From Syntrophorhabdaceae bacterium (GTDB lineage: Bacteria; Desulfobacterota; Syntrophorhabdia; Syntrophorhabdales; Syntrophorhabdaceae): a stretch of DNA of 57,277 bases. The notes under the pieces are model-generated. The model made no database searches. It saw nothing but the letters and a program-made list of their open reading frames with translations, and was not told the DNA's origin. The number at the start of each line of letters is the position of its first letter. Within the stretch, counting starts at the first letter, position 1. Below are positions 6,321 through 41,992 of this stretch, one piece after another. A program made the translations under genes and the position numbers. The DNA lies in assembly GCA_035541755.1 (NCBI GenBank), contig DATKMQ010000031.1, positions 1 through 57,277 of the forward strand, read 5' to 3'.

Positions 6321-7154
6321 ATGAATTACCGACCTTTTCTCAAGAGGTGTATGACACCTGTTACCATTATGGTCGTCCCTCATTCACGCACAAGACCATT
6401 CAAGCTCAAAGTATCTTTGATAGGGCTCGCTGTCTGCTGCCTTCTTTCGATAACCGGGGCAATCTACGTTATCTCCGTGGGCTTCAAAATGGTTGATTAC
6501 TATGTTATGAGGAATAAGCTCTCCTATTTTTCGAGACAGTTCGGCGACTTGAGATCAACCATAGTATCCCTTAAGGAAACAAACACGGAGCTCTCCAAGC
6601 TGCTCGCCATGAAATCAAAGAAGGACATAATAAACTCGGCAGACTTGCAGGATACGGGCTCTCTGGATATTGAGGCCTTGAAGAAACAGGTGAACGAGAC
6701 CATCGAATCCGTGGCTGCAATAAAGGCCTTCATCGCCGAACAGAAAGATGTCTATATGGCAACCCCTTCGGGCTGGCCGGTCCAGGGTGTGATCAGCTCA
6801 GGGTTTGGAATGAGGGTGCACCCGATCACGGGCGACGTCATAAAGCACACAGGTGTTGACATCAGGATACCGCCGGGCACGAATGTAAAGGCAACGGCGC
6901 CAGGCATCGTAAGTTTTTCAGGCTGGACGAACGGGAGCGGCTATATCGTGGTATTGGAGCACGGACACGGCTTCAGCACCGCCTACGCTCACAATCGAAA
7001 GAACTATGTGATCGTGGGGCAGAAGGTGAAAAAAGGTGAGCAGATCGCCATGTCCGGCTCAACAGGGGCTTCCACGGGTCCCCACGTGCACTACGAGGTT
7101 TGGAAAGAGGGCAAGCAGGTGAATCCCGCTCCCTACCTGGGGGATACCCTGTGA
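6321..7154 (+). CDS. M23 family metallopeptidase (murein endopeptidase)
   Basis: This 277-aa membrane-anchored peptidoglycan hydrolase has an N-terminal transmembrane anchor (about residues 28-52), a coiled-coil linker (about 65-145) and a C-terminal LytM/M23 domain (about 150-277). The zinc and catalytic residues are in place: GFGMRVHPITG, HTGVDI and HVHYEV. M23 enzymes cut peptide cross-links in the cell wall. Its stop overlaps the GTG start of the first bactofilin, so the two are translationally coupled. In other bacteria bactofilins scaffold M23 enzymes to set local wall shape, and this arrangement strongly suggests the same here. Confidence 0.93.
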   Translation: MNYRPFLKRCMTPVTIMVVPHSRTRPFKLKVSLIGLAVCCLLSITGAIYVISVGFKMVDYYVMRNKLSYFSRQFGDLRSTIVSLKETNTELSKLLAMKSKKDIINSADLQDTGSLDIEALKKQVNETIESVAAIKAFIAEQKDVYMATPSGWPVQGVISSGFGMRVHPITGDVIKHTGVDIRIPPGTNVKATAPGIVSFSGWTNGSGYIVVLEHGHGFSTAYAHNRKNYVIVGQKVKKGEQIAMSGSTGASTGPHVHYEVWKEGKQVNPAPYLGDTL

Positions 7155-7546
7155 TACTGAAAAAGAAGCAAACTCCTCTCGAGACGCTCATTGGACCAGA
7201 CTCCACAATCAGGGGCGAATTGACAACCAAAGGGATGTTGCGCGTCGATGGCGTCATCGAGGGAAATGTTGCGGCCGATTCTCTGGTCGTGGGCAAAACG
7301 GGCGCGGTCAAAGGAGATATAACGGTACGGGACATAGAGGTGAACGGGAGTATAGAAGGTAATATCAATGCACATGAATTTGTTGAGATCAGACCGGAAG
7401 GTGCGGTGGAGGGAGATATTCATACGACAAAACTCACCGTATCGGAGGGCGCCTTTTTTGCCGGTCACTCTTATATGCGAAAACACGATGAAGCCCGTGA
7501 AGAAAGCGAGACGGGAGACGAAAAGAAGGTTGAAAGAATCTTTTGA
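7151..7546 (+). CDS. Bactofilin 1
   Basis: This 131-aa bactofilin (polymer-forming cytoskeletal protein) starts at GTG 7151, overlapping the peptidase stop as GTGA. An upstream in-frame ATG at 7100 lies inside the peptidase gene and is unlikely. The core shows the repeating beta-helix pattern: STIRGELTTKGMLRVDGVIEG, then GAVKGDI, then GSIEGNI, then GAVEGDI. A short charged C-terminal tail follows. Bactofilins form non-polar filaments without nucleotide at the inner face of the membrane. Confidence 0.9.
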   Translation: MILKKKQTPLETLIGPDSTIRGELTTKGMLRVDGVIEGNVAADSLVVGKTGAVKGDITVRDIEVNGSIEGNINAHEFVEIRPEGAVEGDIHTTKLTVSEGAFFAGHSYMRKHDEAREESETGDEKKVERIF

Positions 7547-7700
7547 GGGACTTGAACCCAATTGCTCTCTAAATCCCTCATACTATCGGCAAGAACATCG
7601 CAAACAGCAGGATATTGTGTGGCACGTATGTTGCAGCTAAAAATACAATGGATATGCGCAAAGCATGATCCAAATAATTAACTACTAAAGGAGAGGAGCT

Positions 7701-8078
7701 ATGGTAGTCGAGAAAAAAACCAATGGATCAGAAATCGATGAAAAAGACATCACGACAGTTGTTGCTGACGACTTGGAGATCAAGGGCACCATCAGGTTCA
7801 AGTCATCTGTGATGCTGAAAGGTGTTTTTGACGGTGAGATATTCTCAGAAGGACTCCTGGTTGTGGGACCTACAGCCAAGGTGGCGGCGACAATTACGAC
7901 AAAGACCCTGATCTCCCATGGCGAGATCACCGGTAATGTGGTCGCCAACGAGCAGGTAACCCTGAAGAGCACATCTCTCCATAACGGTGATATTTCCACG
8001 CCCAACATCATTATCGAGAATGGGGCCGTATTCAACGGTTCTTGCGCAATGAGAGCAAAAGACATTACCGTGAAATAG
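7701..8078 (+). CDS. Bactofilin 2
   Basis: This 125-aa bactofilin keeps the beta-helix repeats (IKGTIRFKSSVMLKGVFDGEI, GPTAKVAATI, GEITGNV, HNGDIST). It has only a short N-terminal arm and almost no C-terminal tail. An AGGAGAGGAG ribosome-binding site lies just before the ATG. It is closely similar to bactofilin 3 downstream, even at the nucleotide level around VVADDLEI and ENGAVFNG. That points to a tandem duplication, while bactofilin 1 is more distant. Confidence 0.92.
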   Translation: MVVEKKTNGSEIDEKDITTVVADDLEIKGTIRFKSSVMLKGVFDGEIFSEGLLVVGPTAKVAATITTKTLISHGEITGNVVANEQVTLKSTSLHNGDISTPNIIIENGAVFNGSCAMRAKDITVK

Positions 8079-8123
8079 GCGAGGCGAGGTGTGGCTGCAA
8101 AATAACCCAAAGGGGGTAAATGC

Positions 8124-8729
8124 ATGGCAACAGAGATTCCTGTTTTAGAGGAAATTAAAGAAGAAAAGATAACCACAGTTGTTGCTGACGATCTAGAGAT
8201 CAGGGGCGCCATAAAGTTCAAATCCTCTGTCATGCTCAAAGGCATCTTTGAGGGAGAAATCCAATCGGAGGGTCTTCTCGTGGTCGGACCCACCGCTAAA
8301 GTGACGGCGACCATTGCCACAAAAACCCTTGTGTCGCATGGAGAAGTTACCGGTAATGTAACCGCTCAGGACCAGGTCATTCTAAAACAAACGTCCACCC
8401 ATAATGGCGACCTGAAAACTCCCTATCTGACTGTCGAGAATGGGGCCGTATTCAACGGCAAGTCTGTCATGGAAAGGATGCCGACGACTGTGTCGGAGGA
8501 AAAACCATTAGAAATCCAGGTGGAGGCGCCCGAGGAAAAGCCGGCGGCCATATTTGACATTCCGCAGGCCGCGCCTGTCGAAGAGAAGCAGCCGCCCTTT
8601 GTTATACCCAGACAGGACCAAAGAAAAAAGCCGGCACGAGACAAGATCCCTTTTGAAGAATTGGACAAGAAGGAAGAGAGCACGAGCCCGGCAGAGGGTA
8701 CGGAATGGCAGGATAATAAGCCCTATTGA
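8124..8729 (+). CDS. Bactofilin 3 with C-terminal extension
   Basis: This 201-aa bactofilin has a core (about residues 18-120) nearly parallel to bactofilin 2. It then carries an 80-residue Pro/Glu/Lys-rich tail that looks disordered and ends in an acidic patch. The tail could serve as a docking or membrane-recruitment arm, which is inference. Its ribosome-binding site is AAAGGGGG. It is the last gene of the M23-bactofilin unit; the pyrimidine unit starts 91 nt further on. Confidence 0.92.
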   Translation: MATEIPVLEEIKEEKITTVVADDLEIRGAIKFKSSVMLKGIFEGEIQSEGLLVVGPTAKVTATIATKTLVSHGEVTGNVTAQDQVILKQTSTHNGDLKTPYLTVENGAVFNGKSVMERMPTTVSEEKPLEIQVEAPEEKPAAIFDIPQAAPVEEKQPPFVIPRQDQRKKPARDKIPFEELDKKEESTSPAEGTEWQDNKPY

Positions 8730-37032: not shown

Positions 37033-37201
37033 TCTAAGCACGATAGGATCTCTTTCGGGGGCGCGGTGCGACAAGCGCACACCACGGCTCAAGACCGCTA
37101 CCAGAGGGGAGCCTGTCCGCATCAAGAGGCAATAGGCGATCGGCATGTAACAACTTATGAGCAGCCGTTCAAAAATTCAAAGGGCAACAGGAGGAAACCA
37201 T

Positions 37202-39058
37202 ATGGGAACCGGATCTATTCGCTTTGTTCTGACGAGGACCGCCGCACTATGCATGTGTATTGCCTGCTTTCTGTCTGTTGCGGGGGTAACGCACGCCGCG
37301 GTTACGCTTGCGGTACTCAATCCCCAGGGAGAAATAGCCCCACCGCCCGTCTTCGTGCCTACGGCCCGTGTGGCAAGCCTTGACGGCAAGAAAATAGGCA
37401 TCTACTGGAACGGCAAACAAGGCGGAGAGAACTTTTGGGACGTGGTGGAAGAACAACTCAAGACCAGGTATCCTTCGGCTGAGGTTATACGATACAAAGG
37501 CCCTTTTGACCTCGGGCAAGCCATGGCGGAAAAGATCGCCAAGGAGTGCGACGTCTTCATGTACGGCGTGGGTGACTGAGGCTCCTGCAGCTGGGCCGGC
37601 GTGTCCGGTGCCATCAGGTTAGAGAAGCTTGGAAAACCGGTTGTCTATATCGTAGCAGACAATTTTTCCCATGATGCCGAACTATCCGCTGAAGATAATG
37701 GAATGCCCACACTTCGAAGGGTGGCGGTGCCGGGAGAAGAATTCTTTCAGCGGCGGATAAGCCGTGATCAGATAAAGCCTGTCGCAAATAGCGCGGTACA
37801 GGTCCTCATCGCGGGCTTGACCCGTCCGCTCACCAGAGAGGAACTGAATCCCAAACCAAAAAAGACCGCCATGGACAGGATAATCAAGATCACGGCGGAA
37901 AATTACGGAGCAGCCCTGGAGAAATTCAACGCCCTCTTCCTGGCCAATCATTGGGGCAGCGGGCTTCCGCTTATCCCGCCGACGCCAGAGCGGGTCAAAT
38001 GGATGCTCTCCGGTACAAGCCGGTCTAAAGACGAGGTGGTCGGCATCGTCGCTCCGAAGAACGGTAAAGCGACCGTAGAGAAGATCGCAATCAACGCAGT
38101 AATGGCTGGGGCCAAACCCGAGTATCTGCCCGTGATCATAGCGGCTATGGAAGGTTTTACCGCCAAAGATTACGACCTTGTGCACGTGCTCACCTCCTCG
38201 GGCTCCTTTTTTCCTGCCGTCATCGTACACGGGCCCATAGCTAAAGAGATCGGCATGAATTCAGGAACCGGCCTCATTGGCCACGGATTCAGGGCAAACA
38301 ACACCATCGGTCATGCCCTTCGTTTGAGTCTTTTAAATATCGGTCATCTCTGGCCCGGGGAGAACGATATGGCGCTCATAGGGCGCGTTTCCTCCCACAC
38401 ATTTTTCACCTTTGCCGAAAATGAACAGTTCAGTCCCTGGGAACCCTACCATGTGAGCATCGGTTTCAAGAAGGACGAGAGCGCGGTCACCGTTTCGACC
38501 GTGGGCGGATACACGGCAACAACCGGTATGACCGTGTACGGAGGAGGAGCTGTGGCGGTCTGGAGCGCCGATTCAATCCTCGATGCGATCGTCGCCGATA
38601 TAAGCCACGATCGGCGCATATTCACCCTGTTCAAGCGAGGGCAGGCAATACCGTCCGCGCACCCGTCCAAACACATCCTGGTGCTTGCGCCTGAGTTTGC
38701 CAGAGAACTGAACAGAAGAGGTTACACCAGGGCAAGTCTGCAGAAATATCTCTACGAAAAAACGAGCATACCGTTCGAAGAGTTGACCGCACAGGAAGTA
38801 AAGGCGGTTAGGGACAGGATCGAAGGCAGCAAGGCCCGCGACATGCTGCACTACGATATTATGCCTACTGACAGGATACCTGCCTATGAAGAAGTATTGA
38901 AGCCTGGCGGAAAGGTTCCGGTCGTTATCGCCCCCAGGGATATCACAATCCTTGTATCGGGCGGCATACCGGCTTATACGTTCGGCATGTCCTATTTCAG
39001 GGTTTCGCAGGAGACGAAACTCGTGCACGGCGCCACACTCACGAAAAGCGGGCGTTGA
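37202..39058 (+). CDS. Exported UGSC-family selenoprotein
   Basis: Two open frames, 37202-37579 and 37601-39058, lie in the same frame and are joined by one TGA at 37577-37579. Reading it as selenocysteine gives a 618-aa protein with Sec at residue 126 in the motif D-U-G-S-C-S-W, the signature of the UGSC (seleno)protein family. A signal peptide (about residues 1-32, ending THA) sends it to the periplasm. The first 190 residues form the UGSC domain. The remaining 430, with NHWGSGLPLIPPTPERV and SGTGLIGHGFRANNTIGHA, form a second conserved domain of unknown function. A SECIS-like hairpin follows the UGA. The ribosome-binding site is AGGAGGAAACC. It is the first gene of an exported redox operon. 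Confidence 0.9.
37580..37618 (+). promoter_or_regulatory. SECIS-like element of the UGSC gene
   Basis: A hairpin pairs CCTG (37584-37587) with CAGG (37615-37618) and, after internal loops, CCGG (37596-37599) with CCGG (37605-37608). The apical loop CGTGT is about 20 nt past the UGA and has G in its second position. This fits the bacterial SECIS layout read by SelB. Confidence 0.6.
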
Positions 39059-39157: not shown

Positions 39158-39580
39158 GTGTTATCACTAAAAAAGCTCGCATTCATTCTGGTTGTCATGA
39201 TAGCTATGACGCCTTACGCAGCTAGGATATGTAAAGCAAGCCACGAAGAGATTCCGCGCATTACCATCGAGGAACTTAAACGCCTTATCGACTCCGGAAC
39301 TGACGTGGTGATAATTGATGCCCAGGTAAAGAGTCTCTACAATAGAGGGCATATCAGGAAGGCGATAAATCTTCCCTGGAAGACAAGAGTCACGCTCACC
39401 GACGTCGAGAATATTCCGCCGGACAAACTCGTCGTGGTCTATTGCGATTGCGGACCAGGCGAATCGGACAGTTCCGATATAGCCGCTCAGCTATCTTCCC
39501 TCGGATATTTCGACGTCAAGGTGTTGGCGGATCCCTCCATACGGGGCTGGATTGAGGCAGGTTATCCCGTAGAGAAATAG
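39158..39580 (+). CDS. Exported rhodanese-like sulfurtransferase
   Basis: This 140-aa protein starts at GTG 39158, preceded by GAGGAGGGA, and opens with a signal peptide (about residues 1-27). The longer frame to 39065 would bury that signal. The single rhodanese domain shows VVIIDAQVKSLYNRGHI with the N-terminal Asp, GHIRKAINLPW, and an active-site loop beginning at VVYCDCGPGES. The catalytic Cys is thus part of a CDC pair. It would carry or transfer sulfur (or selenium) in the periplasm. It ends 2 nt before the cytochrome gene, inside the selenoprotein operon. Confidence 0.88.
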   Translation: MLSLKKLAFILVVMIAMTPYAARICKASHEEIPRITIEELKRLIDSGTDVVIIDAQVKSLYNRGHIRKAINLPWKTRVTLTDVENIPPDKLVVVYCDCGPGESDSSDIAAQLSSLGYFDVKVLADPSIRGWIEAGYPVEK

Positions 39581-39582
39581 AA

Positions 39583-40068
39583 ATGCGCATGTTCTCCTAT
39601 CCCGCGGTTATGGCCTTGCTGATCTTCTGTTGTGTGCGTATCGGACAAGAAAGTCCCGCGTATGCCCAGGATGCCTCAGGAAATTACGTGGGCTTTAAGG
39701 CCTGTTCCTCATGCCATCAAACCCTCACAGAAGGCTGGCTCACCACAAGGCACGCCAGGACATTCGAGAGTCTCAAGAAATCCTCCCAGGAGAATCTGCC
39801 CGGGTGCGTGAAATGCCATGTAACGGGCTACGGGGAGGACGGCGGATTTATCGATTACGATCTCACCCCTGAGATGGCCGGTGTCCAATGCGAGCAGTGC
39901 CACGGCGCAGGGCGTAAACACGTCGAAACGGGCGGGGAAGTGGGGCTTCCGGTCCGCTCAATGGGACAAGCCGCTTGCAGAAGATGCCATACGCCTGGTC
40001 AGGATGCAAACTTCGACTACCAAAAAAAGGTCCGGTCTGTTCACGGGTCTCAAGTCCTGAATAAATGA
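39583..40068 (+). CDS. Periplasmic four-heme cytochrome c (c554-like)
   Basis: This 161-aa secreted protein has a signal peptide ending around PAYA (about residue 29). Four CxxCH heme sites follow: CSSCH, CVKCH, CEQCH and CRRCH. His residues that could serve as distal ligands are present (TTRHARTFESL, GRKHVETGG). The layout resembles the cytochrome c554/NapC-independent small multiheme group. It could deliver or accept electrons for the neighbouring selenoproteins; this is inference from position only. Confidence 0.9.
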   Translation: MRMFSYPAVMALLIFCCVRIGQESPAYAQDASGNYVGFKACSSCHQTLTEGWLTTRHARTFESLKKSSQENLPGCVKCHVTGYGEDGGFIDYDLTPEMAGVQCEQCHGAGRKHVETGGEVGLPVRSMGQAACRRCHTPGQDANFDYQKKVRSVHGSQVLNK

Positions 40069-40084
40069 CAGGGGAGAATACGAA

Positions 40085-40795
40085 ATGAAGAAGAAACAGA
40101 GAAGACTGGGTGCTATCTTTATGGGACTTCTTTTTCTTGCCTGCCTTACGGGGTCGGCTTACGGCGGCGCTGGAAGACTGAGCGCCGAGCCTCTCTCTCA
40201 CGACTTCGGTGTCATCGACGAAGGAGCTACGGCCCGCGTGTCGGTCACGCTCACAAACGTAGGAGATGCCGATCTCACCATAACGGAAGTGAGGACCAAC
40301 TGAGCGTGCACCGAGGGCGCGCTTGGTAAGCGCGTGTTGAAACCGAAAGAAACGACTGCCCTCATTATCACTTACGCCACATCGGGACTCCCGGGTCCCT
40401 TCAAAAAAACTATCGACATATCTACGGATGCCGATACCCAAGAAACTGAGATCGTAATGACGGGAGAGGTGCGAGAAGCCCCCAGTGCAAAGATTCAGGT
40501 GGATCCGCGGAGGATTGACATCACAGTCCCCCAGGGTACGGAGCAGAGACAGATAATTACCATAAGAAATACGGGAAACCTTCCGCTCGTCATCAAAAAG
40601 ATTTACTCGCAGGAAACCGGAAAAGTCTACTTAGAGCCGAGGCCGGAACTTGTGATCGAACCGGGTAAATCGGTCACGAGCGAAATAAACATCATCCGGC
40701 GAGTGCAAGGGATGTTCAGAGAAATGATCGTGGTCGAGACTAACGCACGAAATGCTTTAAACGGCCGATTCATGATCATGGCTACCGGGAAATAG
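40085..40795 (+). CDS. Exported DUF1573-domain selenoprotein (UxC motif)
   Basis: Two same-frame segments, 40085-40303 and 40304-40795, are split by TGA at 40301-40303. Readthrough gives 236 aa with Sec at residue 73. The N-terminal signal peptide ends near SAYG. The first domain is DUF1573, an ASH/PapD-like beta fold: HDFGVIDEGATARVSVTLTN, then VRTN-U-A-C-T, then LKPKETTALIITY. In the family this spot normally reads SCGCT, so Sec replaces the first Cys of the CxC. A second similar beta domain follows (about 135-236). A 7-bp perfect hairpin with a GGT loop begins 15 nt after the UGA. The ribosome-binding site is GGGGAG. It lies 16 nt after the cytochrome. Confidence 0.85.
40304..40338 (+). 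promoter_or_regulatory. SECIS-like element of the DUF1573 gene
   Basis: A perfect stem CGCGCTT (40318-40324) / AAGCGCG (40328-40334) closes the loop GGT (40325-40327). The loop starts about 21 nt after the UGA and its first two bases are G. Both values lie inside the accepted bacterial SECIS window (roughly 16-37 nt, G in the first two loop positions). Confidence 0.75.
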
Positions 40796-40810: not shown

Positions 40811-41992
40811 ATGAGAATCTCCTTTCGGCATATCACCCGCGCGCCGCGGGAACTCAGATTATTTATTGCCGCGATATTCGCCATGGGCATGGGCTCCAGC
40901 ATCTTCGATTCCATATTCAACAATTTTCTGGACCAGAGGTTCGCGCTCACAGGTTTTGGCCGCTCATTTCTTGAGTTCCCACGAGAGTTCCCCGGGTTCC
41001 TCACGGTCTTCGTGTCTGCCTCGCTCTGGTTTCTCTGTAGCCGTCGGCTCGGCGCTGTAACCATGCTTATGAGCGCCGCTGGCTCGCTGCTTATGGGTTT
41101 TGTTTCGCCTGTCTACGCGATCATGATAGCCTGGCTCTTCGTCTACAGCCTTGGACAGCACCTCTTCATACCCCTGTCCTCAACGATCGGCATGGACCTC
41201 GCCGGAGAAGGCCAGGCCGGCCGCCGTCTCGGACAATTGAACGCAGTAAGGAACCTCTCGGCCATTCTCGGGAGCGCCATTGTATATCTCGGATTCAGGC
41301 TTCTTCATTTCACCTTTCCCTGCACCTTTTTCTTTGCCGCCACGGCCTTCGGTCTCGCGGCCGTTTTCATGTTCTCCATGAAGCGAGACAAGACCCATAT
41401 GCCCGCTATGTACCTCAACCTTCACCGCGAATACCGCCTCTACTATGTGCTGGCCGTGCTCTATGGCTCCAGGAAACAACTGTTTTTGACTTTCGCCCCC
41501 TGGGTACTCGTCACGATCTTTCATCAGCCAACACAGAGCATAGCTACGCTTCTCACCATCGGAGGCGTCATCGGCGTGGTATTTCAACCGTTCTTAGGCA
41601 GGGCCGTAGACAACTTCGGGGAACGGCTCGTTCTTATATCGGAGGCAGTGCTGCTCGTGTTTGTCTGCCTCGGATACGGTTTCTCCAGGTCCTTTTTTGC
41701 GGAGAGGACGGCGTTTCTCGTCGCATGCGCATGTTTTCTTTTGGATCAGATGCTCATGTCCGTCAACATGGCCCGCTCTACCTATATGAAAAAGATCGCC
41801 CTTCATCCCGATCATCTTCAGCCGGCGCTCACGAGTTCCGTAACTATCGACCACATCTTTTCCATTACCGTGGCCATTCTGGGTGGGATAATCTGGAACG
41901 CCTTCGGATTCCAGTACGTCTTTCTTATGGGCGCAATCATTGCCCTCTGCAATCTCTTCGCGGCAGCAATGATAAGAATTCCTGAGCGGTGA
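40811..41992 (+). CDS. MFS family transporter
   Basis: This 393-aa integral membrane protein has about 12 hydrophobic segments of the major facilitator type. Typical signs are Gly/Phe-rich helices, a charged central loop near residues 195-210 (MKRDKTHMPAMYL) and the loop FLGRAVDNFGER between later helices, matching the MFS 2-3 loop pattern of the second half. The substrate is not evident. It follows the DUF1573 gene by 15 nt, so it belongs to the selenoprotein operon and may import or export the small molecule on which that system acts. Confidence 0.85.
   Translation: MRISFRHITRAPRELRLFIAAIFAMGMGSSIFDSIFNNFLDQRFALTGFGRSFLEFPREFPGFLTVFVSASLWFLCSRRLGAVTMLMSAAGSLLMGFVSPVYAIMIAWLFVYSLGQHLFIPLSSTIGMDLAGEGQAGRRLGQLNAVRNLSAILGSAIVYLGFRLLHFTFPCTFFFAATAFGLAAVFMFSMKRDKTHMPAMYLNLHREYRLYYVLAVLYGSRKQLFLTFAPWVLVTIFHQPTQSIATLLTIGGVIGVVFQPFLGRAVDNFGERLVLISEAVLLVFVCLGYGFSRSFFAERTAFLVACACFLLDQMLMSVNMARSTYMKKIALHPDHLQPALTSSVTIDHIFSITVAILGGIIWNAFGFQYVFLMGAIIALCNLFAAAMIRIPER

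Follow-up and report, generated by a model that had tools for sequence, protein, structure and literature searches.

A UGSC selenoprotein fused to a near-constant partner domain, its remote kinship with GrdB and a putatively exported module with a second selenoprotein

On the forward strand of a Syntrophorhabdaceae contig of 57,277 nucleotides (the whole stretch analysed, hereafter the window), a coding frame between positions 37,202 and 39,058 is interrupted by a single in-frame TGA. Do two short genes lie here or one selenoprotein and, if the latter, what might such a protein do?

One gene read through an in-frame TGA

The frame is open from ATG 37,202 to a TGA at 39,056–39,058 and holds one internal TGA, at 37,577–37,579, within the string G-V-G-D-U-G-S-C-S-W; read through, it specifies 618 residues, with selenocysteine (Sec) at position 126 and a candidate resolving cysteine at position 129. 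A Shine-Dalgarno-like AGGAGG (37,189–37,194) stands 7 nt upstream of the ATG. Residues 1–32 (37,202–37,297, ending in VTHA before AVTL) form a probable signal peptide as judged by eye, and by the same judgement a hydrophobic leader starts three orthologues introduced below (L050–L052). Residues 38–207 (37,313–37,822) match the UGSC domain PF24696 at 105.7 bits against a Pfam gathering cut-off of 25, an assignment joined by a profile alignment and a structural model described below; as the score on the NCBIfam UGSC equivalog NF041046 is 87.9, under its cut-off of 125, the protein is filed under PF24696 only. Positions 37,910–39,055 encode a C-terminal domain (CTD), recognised from its homologues and as a partner of UGSC domains, and without a match in Pfam or NCBIfam. 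A mechanical list of open reading frames cuts the gene into 37,157–37,579 (140 aa) and 37,601–39,058 (485 aa). Judged from the sequence, 37,202–39,058 is one two-domain selenoprotein, probably exported, and not two genes; its identity as a Sec-encoding fusion is close to certain. A sequence-only reading of this DNA had anticipated much of this: the same-frame continuation beyond D-U-G-S-C-S-W, membership of the UGSC family and the two false genes of automated calling are all borne out, and the secreted form agrees with the leader seen by eye. The second domain that it proposed is indeed fused on the same chain, in the orthologues as here, but is about 385–410 residues long rather than 430.

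The capacity to insert Sec is encoded in the same genome (an assembly of 3.85 Mb in 180 contigs, 95.8% complete), where SelA (583.5 bits), SelB (377.6 bits) and tRNA-Sec (76.3 bits) each score above cut-off; a missing SelB was what the sequence-only reading had named as fatal to its proposal. A scan of GTDB contigs returned 18 candidate stretches, four of which encode relatives of the full-length protein: L049, L050, L051 and L052, from metagenome-assembled genomes titled Deltaproteobacteria, Syntrophaceae, Acidobacteria and Gammaproteobacteria, with BLASTP identities to the fusion protein of 59%, 59%, 50% and 42–43%, respectively. Each has a TGA at the corresponding codon and reads on into the second domain, and a TGA shared by four orthologues with coding sequence on both sides is not chance. 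Close homologues that stop at the TGA and lack the second domain, also named in advance as telling against a selenoprotein, were not seen. The comparison with UGSC homologues suggested at the time recovered both kinds, with Sec in all four orthologues and cysteine at the Sec site in Natrinema (GDCGSCT), Roseovarius (GDCGSCC), Variovorax (GACGSCS and MCGSCT), Neorhizobium (GHCSTCA) and Arthrobacter (GDCGSCS). In a 75-domain UGSC tree, a single clade (98/95), made up wholly of Sec carriers, groups the window protein with L049, L051, L052 and L033, the last being the same gene as L050.

The hairpin that the sequence-only reading had seen about 20 nt downstream of the TGA is present at approximately 37,592–37,613, 15–36 nt past the first TGA base, with its apical loop about 23–27 nt past. 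Taken by itself the window copy is not distinguishable from background, as 151 of 300 synonymous-codon shuffles are equally stable; its support comes from the family. For most Sec members folding likewise predicts a loop, about 21–27 nt past the TGA, and hairpins are more stable relative to shuffles in 18 Sec members (mean z -1.28) than in 10 non-Sec members (-0.27; one-sided p 0.006). Across 16 of those 18 Sec members, pairing holds in 65.2% of helix cells, against 52.5 when shuffled and at most 47.3 when the helix is slid along the alignment. The covariation score is 0.414, whereas no slid helix exceeds 0.218; the slid versions are the fairer comparison, the helix register having been chosen after the predicted hairpins were viewed and some members, including the window, using a shifted one. 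A bacterial SECIS hairpin after the TGA is thus supported as a predicted feature across the UGSC family. A genuine stop at the TGA, or an error in sequencing, leaving a pseudogene or two genes, would account for the TGA itself and for a window hairpin no better than its shuffles; such a reading must also contend with a TGA kept in four other assemblies amid sequence conserved on both sides, with the encoded SelA, SelB and tRNA-Sec and with the family covariation, and is highly improbable.

Kinship of the UGSC domain with GrdB, and the partner domain

GrdB is the subunit of glycine reductase that carries Sec. A UGSC profile (27 rows) aligned with a 30-row profile of its C-terminal half at an hhalign score of 81.0 (Prob 97.7, P 1.5e-12), with Sec on Sec and with the flanking strand and helix likewise aligned. 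Twenty column shuffles reached at most 21.2, reversed profiles gave 15.3 and 16.8, and the CTD scored 16.1 against the UGSC profile and 16.8 against that of GrdB. The larger 75-row UGSC alignment scored 74.9 against GrdB and 58.9 (Prob 93) with six motif columns masked; at least one of its rows extends into the CTD, and both scores come from UGSC columns 75–172. UGSC and GrdB (PF07355) thereby share Sec in a U-G-T/S-C-T/S context as well as its structural surroundings. A direct PF07355 match was absent from the fusion protein in a Pfam scan at E up to 1, as it was from the window genome, so that the kinship is one of remote homology and not of membership. On these profile alignments, UGSC and the C-terminal half of GrdB are very probably remotely homologous. 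As a side observation, the many short PF07355 matches in a sample of genomes from the phylum include two short GrdB-like proteins (L090 and L093) with Sec in GUGICNQ or AUGICNQ.

A PDB sequence search with GrdB gave nothing credible, which leaves no direct structural comparison between UGSC and GrdB. An AlphaFold2 model of the whole protein has a modest pLDDT of 61.5, with most of the UGSC part good; in that part strands and helices alternate, and Sec (model residue 95) falls between the strand at 87–93 and the helix at 96–111. Its fold matches are Rossmann- or receiver-like (lumazine synthase, receiver and cobalamin-domain-like folds, with Z of 8.2–9.7 among the best matches listed). Thioredoxins were absent among the matches listed, an absence that carries no weight.

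These results bear on a simpler explanation, in which UGSC is an ordinary thiol or selenol oxidoreductase that reduces peroxides or disulfides through its UxxC motif, with the CTD as an accessory. The motif itself invites such a view, as do the trxB or trxA genes that adjoin several members, and a thioredoxin-like fold was guessed for UGSC in an analysis of the GOS metagenome (PMC2398784). The predicted Rossmann-like fold speaks against that guess, without excluding thioredoxins; the GrdB alignment persists with the motif masked; and a Sec site taken over by Ala, Ile or Gln in proteins that retain the CTD, as described below, would be odd for a purely redox protein. We regard this explanation as possible but improbable.

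Across 33 homologues of the CTD, G254, P260, T261, T291, N298, M301, G303, P306, G344, N366, L375, E406, W413, G507 and G587 are invariant or nearly so, and no cysteine or histidine is invariant in the 33 rows. Eight homologous CTDs scanned against Pfam matched no family, the NCBIfam scan gave one chance-like row only, and a PDB sequence search with the CTD found nothing credible. GrdE, the partner of GrdB, was considered as a relative and rejected, its profile scoring 16.4 against the CTD, which amounts to no similarity; the UGSC-CTD architecture therefore lacks the pyruvoyl part of the Grd system. UGSC thus departs from GrdB in two respects, having no direct HMM hit and having the CTD in place of GrdE. 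A fumarase-like fold was also rejected: class I fumarase came first in Foldseek/VIA-align (best Z 6.2, rmsd 5.3, 189 aligned), but the CTD model, built with six sequences, is poor (pLDDT 62.4) and the profile score of 11.4 was exceeded by 14 of 15 column shuffles. Elsewhere, a stretch that looks thioredoxin-like by eye, with a CATC motif, is fused ahead of a CTD (L037, 1000–2808), with a Sec-type UGSC gene after it.

A union of UGSC with a second domain has been met before. The GOS report, from 2008, describes a fusion of UGSC with a domain called "Unknown_1", like the window gene a UGSC selenoprotein joined to an uncharacterised conserved domain (PMC2398784). The domains fused there have a conserved cysteine as a rule, whereas the CTD has no invariant one, a comparison made from the text of that report alone (PMC2398784).

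Family distribution, loss of selenocysteine and gene neighbourhoods

How particular is this fusion to the window? UGSC occurs in 37 of 395 genomes of the phylum sample, at no fewer than 89 places, the counts being lower bounds for copy-rich genomes, which were scored with at most eight candidates. Fusion-length frames, defined solely by a length of at least 500 aa, make up at least 57 of the 89 listed places, and at least 51 contain just one TGA; shorter frames make up at least 32, at least 29 of them with a single TGA. On these counts the fusion is the usual form of UGSC in the phylum sample. The sequence-only reading had located the interest of the gene in its fusion; the fusion is real but is not special to 37,202–39,058. 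In the class, UGSC was found in six of 46 genomes at 22 places (14 with a TGA, eight without), and the window genome has ten such places, six with one TGA and four without. Of the 28 new phylum loci, 27 had a CTD match within the locus, as did 20 of the 22 class loci, L058 and L061 being the class exceptions. Nearly every UGSC thus has the CTD as its partner, fused or as an adjacent gene. Those two loci (L058, 1021–2040; L061, reverse strand) hold lipoprotein-like UGSC proteins with the motif SGUGHC, and a CTD was not found nearby. In viral contigs, 111 stretches fitted a pattern and none was a UGSC relative.

The Sec site itself is variable. Among the 75 distinct UGSC domains it is U in 60, C in seven and another residue in eight; the four TGA-less paralogues of the window genome have A, A, I and Q, keep the CTD, and divide in the tree between two clades, next to relatives that do carry Sec. 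Some UGSC-CTD paralogues have lost Sec, and since they keep the CTD, that domain may act without Sec; no other observation speaks so strongly against an indispensable Sec. It raises another reading, in which enzymatic action or binding belongs to the CTD, with UGSC serving as a redox switch or a structural half and its Sec being dispensable. Besides the Sec-less paralogues, with their whole CTDs and two clades alongside copies from their own genome, a second CTD gene beside a fusion at locus L183 (3792–4616) points that way. The prevalence of U (60 of 75, with seven C), the near-constant company of UGSC and CTD and the want of any invariant Cys or His in the 33 CTD rows make it rather unlikely. 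Two further fused genes, from Sporomusa termitida (L108, 6719–8188) and Vibrio europaeus (L109, 6680–8119), have Met at the Sec site (DMGTS), and in both, genes for aconitase X and DUF126 lie near.

Neighbouring genes hint at substrates and electron donors. Among 42 scanned loci, ten contain a gene resembling thioredoxin reductase (TrxR; E below 1e-5), one of them being the source of the query. In Arthrobacter the order is ABC transporter, hydrolase, trxB, trxA, CTD, UGSC; in Roseovarius, CTD, UGSC, trxB; and in Variovorax, trxB, transporter, SDR, CTD. Other UGSC-CTD loci show, by eye and from annotation, TRAP or tripartite carboxylate transporters, an MFS transporter and enzymes of organic-acid breakdown. 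With such transporter, enzyme and thioredoxin neighbours, the setting looks like small-molecule catabolism with NADPH electrons passed through thioredoxin (Trx). Glycine reductase is fed by the trxB-trxA of its own operon, and this Trx/TrxR source of electrons is a likeness between grd operons and the TrxR-flanked UGSC-CTD relatives. That just ten loci in 42 have a TrxR-like gene counts against the GrdB-like mechanism proposed below.

A putatively exported module and its possible chemistry

In the window the fusion gene opens a run of four genes. A putatively exported rhodanese with a YCDCGPGESD loop is encoded at 39,158–39,580; its frame is open from ATG 39,065, and GTG 39,158 is preferred, having AGGAGG before it and leader-like sequence after. 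A putatively exported tetrahaem c-type cytochrome of the c554 family follows at 39,583–40,068, with four CxxCH motifs, and then a DUF1573 protein, likewise putatively exported, at 40,085–40,795 (PF07610, 96.5 against a Pfam cut-off of 26.1). The DUF1573 gene is a second with an in-frame TGA, at 40,301–40,303 (U73, in TN-U-ACT), and has a SECIS-like hairpin of eight pairs with a GGT loop at 40,317–40,335. In four genes (the window copy and those of L183, L184 and L231) this hairpin is 96.9% paired, four of its eight pairs having changed on both sides, and slid helices reach at most 62.5%. All lie on the forward strand, as does a gene for an MFS transporter (40,811–41,992) that begins 15 nt downstream and may, from its spacing, belong to the operon. 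Leader-like N-termini are visible by eye on the rhodanese, cytochrome and DUF1573 products, from which we infer that the fusion gene opens an exported module of rhodanese, tetrahaem cytochrome and second selenoprotein. Amongst NCBIfam models, the nearest to the module partners are OS_HP2/DUF1573 NF041425 and LYCAU rhodanese NF041203, at 53.5 and 58.2 bits (below cut-offs of 100 and 115), together with the C-terminal part of a UshA-like selenoprotein, also below cut-off; these nearest families themselves include selenoproteins. The sequence-only reading had missed the DUF1573 gene with its TGA, in company with the rhodanese and cytochrome, just as it had missed the kinship of UGSC with GrdB.

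The four genes recur as a set. A homologue of the DUF1573 gene with its TGA (E up to 1e-8) occurs in three of 46 class genomes, and in all three the four genes are together, in the order UGSC-CTD, rhodanese, cytochrome, DUF1573 in the window and with UGSC-CTD last in L183 and L184. The L183 UGSC-CTD protein is a distant relative (34%) of the window protein and not its orthologue, so that the association goes beyond common ancestry of a single locus. DUF1573 matches at E up to 1e-10 occur in 25 of the 395 genomes sampled from the phylum; of these, only G000, G019 and G091 fall below 1e-30, each with one TGA, whilst a weak match in G417 also has a TGA and the remaining matches have none. G091 has cytochrome and DUF1573 without an adjoining rhodanese or UGSC. 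The orthologues L049 and L052 have no module and L051 has the rhodanese only, showing that the partners are not obligatory. Behind a paralogous UGSC-CTD gene (L015) stand a rhodanese and then a broken cytochrome remnant (7908–8078, one CxxCH).

A published parallel is the Geobacter extHIJKLMNOPQS cluster (PMC5877670), in which a rhodanese and c-type cytochromes are likewise clustered with a selenoprotein, the Sec-cytochrome ExtKL; the module differs in its cytochrome and selenoproteins, and no ExtI-type porin was seen. The putatively exported module might act beyond the cytoplasm on a compound of sulfur, selenium or tellurium and reduce it, as suggested for the ext cluster. Its rhodanese, tetrahaem cytochrome and two selenoproteins in one place fit such a role, and the ext cluster too pairs a rhodanese with a selenoprotein, loss of ExtI impairing selenite and tellurite reduction (PMC5877670). 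The window cytochrome, however, scores 12.9 against 250 bits on the ExtKL model, the adjoining window genes scanned include no porin, and most UGSC-CTD genes examined lie in other neighbourhoods without the module; a reduction of this kind by the module is unlikely.

We give about even chances to a different mechanism as a whole, in which a GrdB-like Sec nucleophile reduces a substrate held by the CTD; GrdB-like substrate reduction by UGSC-CTD, estimated separately, falls somewhat short of even. UGSC would be an alpha/beta domain with Sec126 between a strand and the next helix and Cys129 three residues on, and the CTD would most likely bind or activate the substrate. The Sec126 selenolate would attack an electrophilic centre of a small CTD-held molecule, giving a selenoether or seleno-sulfur adduct on Sec; Cys129 would then free the product by forming an Se-S bond, which an electron donor would reduce. 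In cytosolic relatives that donor would probably be the TrxR and Trx encoded beside some of them, and in the exported version the path probably runs through the co-encoded CxC rhodanese, tetrahaem cytochrome c and DUF1573 selenoprotein. Homology and conservation point to Sec126 as probable nucleophile, Cys129 as probable resolver and the CTD as probable substrate site; gene order suggests the electron path.

Firstly, then, set against the UGSC family as defined (PF24696; NF041046), the window gene shares a domain match above the Pfam cut-off, a UxxC motif with Sec and an in-frame TGA, and differs in falling under the NF041046 cut-off, in its CTD fusion, in its probable export and in its place in a module with a second selenoprotein. 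Secondly, what is new beyond the sequence-only reading is the GrdB kinship, the near-constant CTD partner and the two-selenoprotein, putatively exported module, the fusion being less unusual than it had seemed. UGSC is among the commonest bacterial selenoproteins of aquatic metagenomes (PMC2398784) and, in a 2026 review, among selenoproteins with largely uncharacterised functions (PMC13188914). Passages on operons in a 2026 review list grdAB, prdBC, frh/hdr, SAO and Tso, with the UGSC-CTD module not among them, and neither the UGSC-GrdB link nor the four-gene module was found in passages from openly available papers on UGSC selenoproteins. Tentatively, and with a good deal of doubt, UGSC-CTD proteins may be widespread, unrecognised selenium-dependent reductases that share the catalytic half of GrdB and have a new partner domain in place of GrdE, the window protein being an extracytoplasmic version in which rhodanese, c-type cytochrome and second selenoprotein replace thioredoxin as the electron path. 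If this is true, the window version would couple a selenoenzyme of the GrdB type to the pool of periplasmic cytochromes. The GrdB link, near-constant partner and compact, putatively exported two-selenoprotein module together turn an orphan family into a testable enzyme.

There is also a concrete case for gene finders, as deposited plasmid records either divide UGSC genes or annotate nothing over the second part. On plasmid p2-T1 of Acidovorax sp. T1 (L106), a Sec-type UGSC-CTD fusion (GDUGSCT) at 6923–8350 is annotated as a short CDS ending at 7213, the remainder carrying no annotation. On a Paracoccus ferrooxidans plasmid (L113), a Sec-type UGSC gene (ANUGSCT) at 6387–6956 is annotated as two hypothetical proteins, and a selB gene lies about 4.4 kb beyond it.
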